Origin: Tyzzerella sp.
GTDB taxonomy: Bacteria; Bacillota; Clostridia; Lachnospirales; Lachnospiraceae
Assembly (NCBI GenBank): GCA_017472665.1
Contig: JAFUOS010000013.1
Coordinates: 1-64,000, forward strand
Length of the DNA: 64,000 nt
Direction of reading: 5' to 3'
The notes beneath the pieces are model-generated. The model searched no databases, had not been told where the DNA came from, and worked only from the letters and a program-made list of their open reading frames with translations. Positions 62,666 to 64,000 of this stretch are shown here, one piece after another. A program made the translations under genes and the position numbers. Within the stretch, counting starts at the first letter, position 1. Every line of letters begins with the position of its first letter.

Positions 62666-63505
62666 ATGGAAGATAGAATATTAACAATCAGACAAATTGA
62701 ACAATATAAAGAATATTTAATACGAGAAGAGAAAAGCGCAGCTACGCTGGAGAAATATCTCCGGGATGTCTGCGCTTTTTTTGCGTTCGCAGACCATAGA
62801 GAGATTACGAAGGAATTGGCTATGGATTATAAGAAATTTTTAATGGACAAAGGCTATGCGGTGAGAAGTATCAATTCTATGTTAGCATCACTGAATAGCC
62901 TACTTTCATTTTGTGGTTGGGCAGATTGCAAAGTAAAGAGTATAAAAACACAGAGGCAAATCTATTGTGCTGAGGAAAAGGAACTGACAAAAGCGGAATA
63001 TATGCGTTTGTTGGATGCATCAAAGAAGCAGCCCCGCCTTTTTTTGGTATTGCAGACGATTTGCGGAACAGGTATCCGTGTCTCAGAGCTTTCGTATTTT
63101 ACAGTGGAGGCGGTAAAACATGGAGAGATTACCGTGTCCTGCAAAAATAAAATCCGAACAATTTTGCTTCCTGGGAAACTTAGGAAAATGCTTTTAAATT
63201 ATGCCAAAAGAAATGGCATTATGGAGGGAATTATTTTTCGGACAAAGAATGGAAAGCCACTTAATAGGAGTAACATTTGGACGAAAATGAAAGCATTGTG
63301 CGAGGCTGCAAATGTGAAACCAGAGAAAGTATTCCCGCATAATCTGCGGAAGCTCTTTGCGGCAACCTTCTATAAGATAGAAAAAGATATTGCTAAACTT
63401 GCAGATATCCTTGGACACAGCAGTATCAATACTACTCGAATTTATATTATGTCAAGTGGTGTGGAACATCGGAAAAAAATCGAAAGACTTGGATTAGTTG
63501 TTTGA
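62666..63505 (+). CDS. Tyrosine recombinase (XerC/D-like), likely invertase of the adjacent switch
   Basis: 279 residues. N-terminal SAM-like core-binding domain (SAATLEKYLRDVCAFFAF) and catalytic domain with Arg138 (GTGIRVSELS), Lys near 160-162 (CKNKIRTI), His225 and Arg228 (PHNLRK), His251 (LGHSSINTT) and Tyr260 (TRIYIMSS). All active-site residues are present. RBS ATGGAGG precedes ATG 62666. The gene is 41 bp upstream of a 24-bp inverted-repeat pair. No excisionase, other phage genes or att duplications are seen. A terminator-like hairpin lies inside codons 23-39. Confidence 0.93.
   Translation: MEDRILTIRQIEQYKEYLIREEKSAATLEKYLRDVCAFFAFADHREITKELAMDYKKFLMDKGYAVRSINSMLASLNSLLSFCGWADCKVKSIKTQRQIYCAEEKELTKAEYMRLLDASKKQPRLFLVLQTICGTGIRVSELSYFTVEAVKHGEITVSCKNKIRTILLPGKLRKMLLNYAKRNGIMEGIIFRTKNGKPLNRSNIWTKMKALCEAANVKPEKVFPHNLRKLFAATFYKIEKDIAKLADILGHSSINTTRIYIMSSGVEHRKKIERLGLVV
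62732..62782 (+). other. Terminator-like hairpin within the recombinase coding sequence
   Basis: AAAAGCGCAG (62732-62741) pairs with CTGCGCTTTT (62770-62779), enclosing a second hairpin GGAGA/TCTCC (62749-62753 with 62758-62762), and is followed by a run of seven T (62776-62782). The form is that of an intrinsic terminator about 70-115 nt into the gene, suggesting attenuation of recombinase expression. Confidence 0.55.
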
Positions 63506-63546
63506 AAATCATGAATTTCAAGTTGCATTAAATGGCATAAATAAAC

Positions 63547-63570
63547 ACCACATAATTCTTATTATGTAGT
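63547..63570. repeat. Left 24-bp inverted repeat of the invertible segment
   Basis: Exact reverse complement of 63819-63842. It is itself a dyad: arm ACCACATAAT, 4-bp centre TCTT, arm ATTATGTAGT, matching the two-arm core site of tyrosine recombinases. The asymmetric centre sets orientation. A second, imperfect pair (CGAACAAAAT at 63576-63585, complement at 63803-63812) lies just inside. Confidence 0.85.
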
Positions 63571-63604
63571 GTTCTCGAACAAAATGTGCAATATTTACAA
63601 ATGC

Positions 63605-63633
63605 ATAATACTACATATTATTTTGAAATGCAA
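63605..63633 (-). promoter_or_regulatory. Leftward promoter inside the invertible segment
   Basis: On the reverse strand: TTGCAT (63628-63633), 17-bp spacer, TATTAT (63605-63610). In the present orientation it reads toward the 3' end of the recombinase gene (antisense); after inversion it would face the signal peptidase gene with a leader of about 130 nt. Confidence 0.5.
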
Positions 63634-63703
63634 GAAAATTGTGAAATTTTAACAAGCAAAAAAATATGAAAAGGATATGAGGAACTTATTAGGGCATACT
63701 CAT

Positions 63704-63752
63704 AACACCCCCACTGAAATAAATTTTTAATATTTCAATGGGAGTGTTTTTT
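63704..63752 (+). terminator. Terminator inside the invertible segment
   Basis: Arms 63704-63721 and 63731-63748 pair over 18 positions with two C/A mismatches, 9-nt loop, then TTTTTT (63747-63752). An outer TTAGGGCA/TGCCCTAA stem (63689-63696 with 63756-63763) surrounds it. It would stop rightward transcription before the signal peptidase gene in the present orientation. Confidence 0.75.
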
Positions 63753-63818
63753 GTGTGCCCTAAATTATTTTCACAAGACGGAAACGCTGACTGGTACATA
63801 CAATTTTGTTCGTGTATT

Positions 63819-63842
63819 ACTACATAATAAGAATTATGTGGT
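63819..63842. repeat. Right 24-bp inverted repeat of the invertible segment
   Basis: Exact reverse complement of the left repeat at 63547-63570, 248 bp away. It lies 79 bp before the start codon at 63922, leaving the RBS outside the segment. Confidence 0.85.
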
Positions 63843-63921
63843 TATAAATTCAAATGAAAAATGCAAATAGATAAATAGAAAATATAGTAACTAAAATATT
63901 TCCTAAAAAGGAGAGGTAAAG

Positions 63922-64000
63922 ATGAAAATCTCAAGTGTGCTTAGAAAGGTGTGGAATATCATTACTACGATTATTGTTGTAGTGGTTGTAATCTTTGCCA
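63922..64000 (+). CDS. SipW-like signal peptidase I (5' end only)
   Basis: Only 26 codons are inside the window: MKISSVLRKVWNIITTIIVV and more valine/isoleucine-rich membrane segment. The start K-x-x-N-I-x-T-x-x-V-V before a long hydrophobic helix is typical for Lachnospiraceae SipW-type signal peptidases, which process secreted pilin-like or TasA-like proteins encoded next to them. Catalytic residues are beyond the edge, so the identity is provisional. RBS AAGGAGAGG precedes ATG 63922. Expression probably depends on the upstream invertible segment. Confidence 0.5.
   Translation, partial: MKISSVLRKVWNIITTIIVVVVVIFA

Follow-up and report, generated by a model that had tools for sequence, protein, structure and literature searches.

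The window analyzed here is the whole stretch of 64,000 nucleotides at positions 1 to 64,000 of contig C4 of a Tyzzerella sp. genome (G000; 29 contigs, 65% complete), and C4 itself runs to position 264,993. At its 3′ end, a tyrosine recombinase gene is followed by a short segment framed by inverted repeats (IR) and by the start of a sipW-like signal peptidase gene, the layout of a candidate phase-variation switch. The features of this locus are given below; L004 is the region C4:62001-82000, which covers the cargo genes past the window end.

62666..63505, + strand: tyrosine recombinase (invertase), 279 aa (intact open reading frame [ORF] and domain matches)
63547..63570, + strand: left recombination site IR-L, a dyad with centre TCTT (repeat search)
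63571..63818, no strand: putative invertible segment, 248 bp, between the two repeats
63605..63633, - strand: predicted promoter, -35 TTGCAT (63633-63628), 17 nt, -10 TATTAT (63610-63605), at a position common to relatives; it faces the recombinase, which corresponds to OFF
63689..63763, + strand: long hairpin (folding); its inner part, 63704-63748, with a T6 tract (63747-63752), is a likely terminator toward sipW
63819..63842, - strand: right recombination site IR-R (repeat search)
63910..63916, + strand: ribosome-binding site of sipW, ggagagg (by eye)
63922..64000 in the window, + strand: sipW-like signal peptidase, 181 aa, with its ATG at 63922 and its end at C4:64467 (L004:1922-2467) (ORF and profile matches)

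As the initial annotation had stated, the recombinase gene is complete and its stop codon lies 41 bp before the left repeat arm. The intact 279-aa ORF contains a Phage_integrase domain (2.3e-24) and a SAM-like N domain (domain search). Residues R138, K160, K162, H225, R228, H251, and Y260 were invariant in the window protein and 8 aligned relatives, and we take their catalytic roles from knowledge of the family. An identity as XerA, XerD, or XerC was rejected, as scores were under all equivalog cut-offs (138.7 versus 220, 103.2 versus 329.6, and 100.6 versus 335.15, respectively); judged by these profiles, the enzyme is Xer-like, yet far below the Xer equivalogs.

The repeats were likewise found as described, being complementary at 24/24 positions and 248 nt apart. 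Each arm is itself a dyad, ACCACATAAT-TCTT-ATTATGTAGT, with 9/10 arm positions paired around an asymmetric 4-bp centre (read from the sequence). No third site with up to 3 mismatches was present in the window or in L004 (shuffle mean, 0.00), no ORF of at least 60 aa lies wholly within the 248-bp segment, and the exact window IR had 0 matches in viral contigs. Beside the arms, on their inner side, lies a further inverted block of 10 nt (CGAACAAAAT at 63576-63585 and ATTTTGTTCG at 63803-63812); it accounts for a 90% match, and the agreement between family arms at that place is down to background. Beyond IR-R, the annotated ribosome-binding site and start codon proved to open an ORF that continues as the 181-aa signal peptidase.

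Relatives of the recombinase (E ≤ 1e-40) were detected in 61 of 299 genomes of the family, at 116 places by our count. From these, 80 regions were taken (the higher-scoring places and the one in G004), together with 80 further loci from named genomes, the best 80 of at least 558 relatives. Among family and genus loci with at least 400 nt of flank, 57/75 carried an IR 3′ of the recombinase, compared to 2/79 upstream flanks and 0/750 shuffles. With the named-genome loci added, the count was 118 of the 142 loci with enough 3′ flank (two records counted twice). The repeats are thus conserved in relatives, whose sites share a common motif, and this recombinase family appears usually to come with its own switch. 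Within the genus, the recombinase occurred in 2/10 genomes; the second, L006/L036, has at another genomic place the same order of recombinase, repeat (20/21, 228 nt between), and signal peptidase, and L036 was called ON. Five distant relatives were found on plasmids, with a 3′ IR in 4/4 examined and a nonfamily motif in L240. An empty site behind pheT was considered and rejected: relatives within the genus differ in the sequence after pheT, and their 1.5-kb flanks showed no nfo gene.

This conservation bears on the source of the recombinase activity. The segment could be inverted by an enzyme encoded elsewhere in the genome, the adjacent one being a remnant or acting at other sites. According to the available text of one study, RecV of Clostridium difficile is needed for some, not all, of its switches (PMC5903667), and a 65%-complete genome may omit other recombinases. 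However, many loci keep recombinase and site side by side with this layout, and the adjacent reading frame is intact with its presumed catalytic residues invariant, so we regard a distant enzyme as unlikely.

From 109 core-aligned loci, the site consensus was (A)CATAAT-N4-ATTATG(T). The four central bases held only 0.04 to 0.17 bits between loci, while the two arms of a locus agreed in 109/109 cases; a self-reverse-complementary centre occurred once (1/109). As the repeat finder may favour equal centres, 138 loci were scanned a second time for arms alone, giving no site in 17, one in 10, and two or more in 111. Centres of the first and last sites matched within 105/111 loci, and within 110/111 when a weaker third site was set aside; five of the six exceptions involved the choice of such a weaker site, and there the stronger pair agrees in its centres. 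Between loci, centres agreed in 66/5,460 pairs. Strand exchange by tyrosine recombinases requires an overlap region that is equal within a site pair, and centres that are equal within loci and free between them fit such a region. The alternative that nothing inverts here, the repeats being att-like scars or plain regulatory palindromes beside an integrase, can appeal to a protein family that includes integrases and to a case made from assembled sequence. It would leave unexplained both this pattern of centres and the homologous segments found in both orientations among relatives (see below), and we consider it very improbable.

Extra same-centre sites in direct orientation were observed beside one arm in L037, L064, L065, L072, L118, L127, L132, L139, L164, L176, and L179, and beside both arms in L121; these loci may have invertible segments that are nested or shortened. 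Four genomes (G157, G038, G055, and G261) carry 6 to 8 copies each of the recombinase family, and several segments of G157 are 78 to 97% alike over 75 to 180 nt, yet their site centres mostly differ. Selection for differing centres within one genome was not supported, as 4/82 pairs within a genome share a centre, compared to about 1% of pairs overall.

Strong promoters in the segments (score of ≥12) had a preferred place, with 68/85 ending 50 to 79 bp from the outer repeat end, and an end-zone promoter of this score was present in 74/120 segments, compared to 20/600 shuffles. Calling the state from these promoters assigned 91 of the 120 segments to OFF and 29 to ON (71 and 19, respectively, with a difference of ≥4). 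Segment homology was then compared with these calls, using blastn pairs of at least 50 bits in which one orientation was ahead by 20 bits. All 65 unambiguous pairs, over 17 loci, agreed with the promoter-based state, 50 being in the same orientation and 15 flipped; permuted labels reached at most 53 agreeing pairs, and a looser rule with duplicates gave agreement in 106/107. In one of the two best flips (L152/L156), the segments were 81% identical over 161 nt and the recombinases 87% identical. In the other (L164/L176), the values were 76% over 179 nt and 89%, with Tas or SipW-plus-Tas cargo. Homologous segments therefore occur in both orientations among relatives; a look for flipped copies in related strains had been proposed as a check.

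The same data address the possibility that the segment flips without controlling sipW, with the operon driven by a promoter of its own beyond IR-R and only antisense RNA to the recombinase coming from the switch. Promoter-like matches do occur in the stretch from IR-R to sipW, in a number expected by chance. Against this stand the clustering of strong segment promoters near the repeat ends and the first ORF past the switch, which lies on the + strand in 105/118 loci, and we judge this arrangement improbable.

In the window, the better promoter at the expected place is on the minus strand, and the state was accordingly called OFF (difference, -4.8). The + strand hairpin with its U6 tract folds at a z of -7.5; its minus strand also folds strongly, with no U tract directly after the stem (by eye). 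The initial annotation had placed a promoter and a terminator in opposite senses on the segment. This holds for the window, where the promoter is at chance when taken alone and the pattern scanner listed no terminator despite the folding hairpin, but it failed as a family rule: among 122 segments, the best strands (promoter/terminator) were R/F in 51, R/R in 44, F/F in 13, F/R in 13, and R/none in 1.

Taken together, the conserved repeats, the two orientations in relatives, and the SipW/TasA-type genes downstream make an ON/OFF phase-variation switch for a surface operon, as first suggested, the best reading of the locus. We put at roughly 0.88 the probability that inversion of the 248-bp segment at the two 24-bp sites that flank it, by the dedicated recombinase (62666-63505), switches sipW and the TasA/BsaA-like operon ON and OFF. 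A single promoter of sigma-A type would lie in the segment, about 60 bp from one of its ends. As oriented in the window, this promoter would be aimed at the recombinase, and transcription entering from the side of the recombinase or pheST would be stopped by the terminator before it reaches sipW; once the segment is inverted, the promoter would drive sipW and the operon behind it. The window copy itself would presumably be flipped by its adjacent recombinase, with transcription following, and a clone would then hold both matrix-producing and bare cells.

Several points weigh against this interpretation. Its basis is the assembled sequence of a single genome of the species, and 24/142 loci had no IR at the threshold used. 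State calls are sequence predictions, and shuffled segments reach a difference of ≥4 in 16.5% of cases; since segment alignments can contain the promoter or hairpin, the orientation test partly overlaps the state call. For the window segment, the scanner gave 6 promoter-like sites compared to 4.4 expected, TTGCAT-N17-TATTAT not being among them, and 80/500 shuffles equalled its promoter score, so that this promoter is weak and not significant alone. Its support comes from the position conserved in relatives rather than from its own score. At an E of 1e-4, blastn matched the window segment to none of the others, and the orientation of the window segment is therefore read from the promoter call alone. 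A promoter between IR-R and sipW is also conceivable.

The cargo continues beyond the window, as listed here.

L004:2515-6159, + strand: five TasA-like ORFs
L004:6143-9118, + strand: 991-aa protein with a SpaA domain
L004:9136-9744, + strand: sixth TasA-like ORF
L004:9757-10419, + strand: protein with PQTGD and a hydrophobic tail, sorting models being under cut-off; cargo end at C4:72419
L004:10391-10843 (C4:72391-72843), + strand: AP2-domain ORF, under the Pfam cut-off, overlapping the final cargo ORF at its end

The signal peptidase matched TIGR02228 at 99.8 bits (cut-off, 51.85) and the Bacillus SipW equivalog at 101.6, under its cut-off of 190. TIGR04088 (SipW-dependent signal) was above cut-off in four of the six TasA-like ORFs and TIGR04090 (BsaA) in one, while none reached the TasA equivalog; a profile of 17 TasA-like proteins from relatives had no match at an E of 1 among solved structures. 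Past position 64000, where a check for pilin- or TasA-like products had been proposed, sipW thus heads six ORFs resembling TasA/BsaA, together with a protein that has a SpaA domain. From these matches, the cargo has the appearance of a SipW/TasA-type export set for a matrix or fibre. Because the genes lie on the same strand with close spacing, they probably form one transcript.

Behind related switches, the cargo differs. Of the 112 first cargo proteins, 85 were scanned; 15 matched Peptidase_S26 and 8 Peptidase_S24, and 19 had an NCBIfam bacterial signal peptidase I match; further first cargo genes encode large surface proteins, capsule functions, and TetR-type regulators. For 114 loci with a 3-kb flank, cargo was labelled SipW plus Tas in 16, SipW in 5, Tas in 4, and neither in 89. 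This label changed at least 18 times on the recombinase tree (a quick tree with 56/145 inner branches open), from which switch and cargo seem to have been re-paired often. In other genera, the same switch is again followed by much of the window operon; cultured strains among them are Hespellia stercorisuis DSM 15480 (called ON, the difference being just 2.3) and Holdemania sp. Marseille-P2844 (called OFF). The Holdemania locus (L118) and a locus of the family Lachnospiraceae (L037) are 91% identical over 2 kb that include recombinase and switch, and the likeness extends into the operon at 72 to 86%. Transfer between orders is the likely explanation of this identity, although mis-binning of G235 could also account for it.

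The AP2 gene at the operon end was rejected as a constant partner of the switch, as it was present in 10/163 loci scanned (flanks of differing length). At other loci, similar AP2/zinc-ribbon proteins were observed near the switch, in five cases within the ORF that directly follows. Genomes with AP2 contained the recombinase in 16/29 cases (the window's included), compared to 45/270 of the others (Fisher's test, 1.2e-5, genome size not controlled). Within 15 kb of a recombinase match, we counted 8 AP2 places, spread over 7 genomes; most AP2 places are elsewhere.

A further element was identified within the recombinase gene.

62735..62782, + strand: terminator-like hairpin (62735-62776) with a T7 tract (62776-62782), a candidate attenuator (repeat search, folding, and codon nulls)

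In the recombinase frame, this hairpin is an imperfect dyad whose GC-rich stem is followed by the T7 tract (-33 kcal/mol; z, -5.5). Synonymous-codon nulls at the matching codons gave p ≤ 0.01 in 11/36 clade members (the window included), eight of them at the floor of 1/1001; as the rows are related, a combined p is only a guide. A T run of at least 4 was present at the hairpin in 10 of these 11 members, L173 being without one. Across 24 rows, changes on both sides occurred at 9/16 hairpin pairs and 68.8% of cells were paired, while some inner pairs fail in most rows. The covariation score was 0.179, compared to 0.107 in shuffles and at most 0.144 with the partner slid. Because the structure was derived from the window row, with 12 less similar rows excluded, the pair count is biased toward it. 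In a wider test of 85 rows, z was below -2 in 14 and rows outside the clade averaged -0.16, which indicates that the hairpin belongs to a subset of relatives.

Judged by its form, the hairpin may be a terminator-attenuator that keeps the recombinase low. On a broader, speculative model, to which we give rather less than even odds, the switch would throttle itself through hairpin attenuation of the recombinase combined with antisense and AP2 feedback. The hairpin would end most transcripts near codons 37 to 39; full enzyme would be made only if translation closely trails the polymerase, and inversion would be rare and bursty. The OFF promoter would read antisense toward the recombinase, and the AP2-domain DNA-binding protein from the operon end, made in ON, may act back on the switch. 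Attenuation, the first part of this model, is supported by the synonymous-codon nulls and the paired changes in relatives.

If the proposed switch operates, DNA inversion would give a matrix operon of gut Clostridia two states, and the same switch design precedes many different genes in related gut bacteria. The family would offer many related enzyme/site pairs with free 4-bp centres, with which the determinants of site choice could be studied. How low rates of switching are maintained can be tested directly through the hairpin in the recombinase gene. Among the literature matches listed, which covered few subscription papers, no publication described sipW or tasA with an invertible promoter or a terminator inside a phase-variation recombinase gene; in the literature searched, the matrix-operon cargo and this hairpin are the parts not found in print.

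Recombinase-linked invertible promoters are otherwise well known, and the window locus joins this known kind. In Escherichia coli fimS, a recombinase gene lies near the invertible promoter of a surface-fibre operon; its recombinase lineage, sites, and fibre differ from those here. In Bacillus subtilis, a matrix export set of the kind that the window cargo resembles makes filaments. The accessible portion of a study on the hCom2 gut community describes inverton group 139 and invertase group 35, with 33 invertons, 32 of them from Clostridia, and group 139 linked to one tyrosine-type recombinase group (PMC11892184). Its examples include Clostridium sp. D5 (26-nt IR, 205 bp between) and Intestinimonas butyriciproducens (14-nt IR, 227 bp between), if the printed coordinates are inclusive, and the orientation of group 139 changed with passage, in one case with surface attachment (PMC11892184). 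The window switch fits this group in size and class, and perhaps belongs to it, a guess made from size, class, and recombinase; the term “signal peptidase” is absent from the main text of that article.

In layout, the locus also resembles the RecV switches Cdi1 (cwpV) and Cdi4 (flagella) of C. difficile, in which a short invertible segment and a recombinase go with phase-variable surface genes (PMC5903667, available text). There, however, one RecV serves several switches, whereas here each switch has an adjacent enzyme. The cargo resembles the sipW-bsaA matrix operon of Clostridium perfringens, where, in the sections available, sipW and the filament protein BsaA are described as a set that makes filaments and is bimodal within a clone through a two-component system (PMC7395162). 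In contrast to C. perfringens, a two-state output at the window locus would come from DNA inversion.
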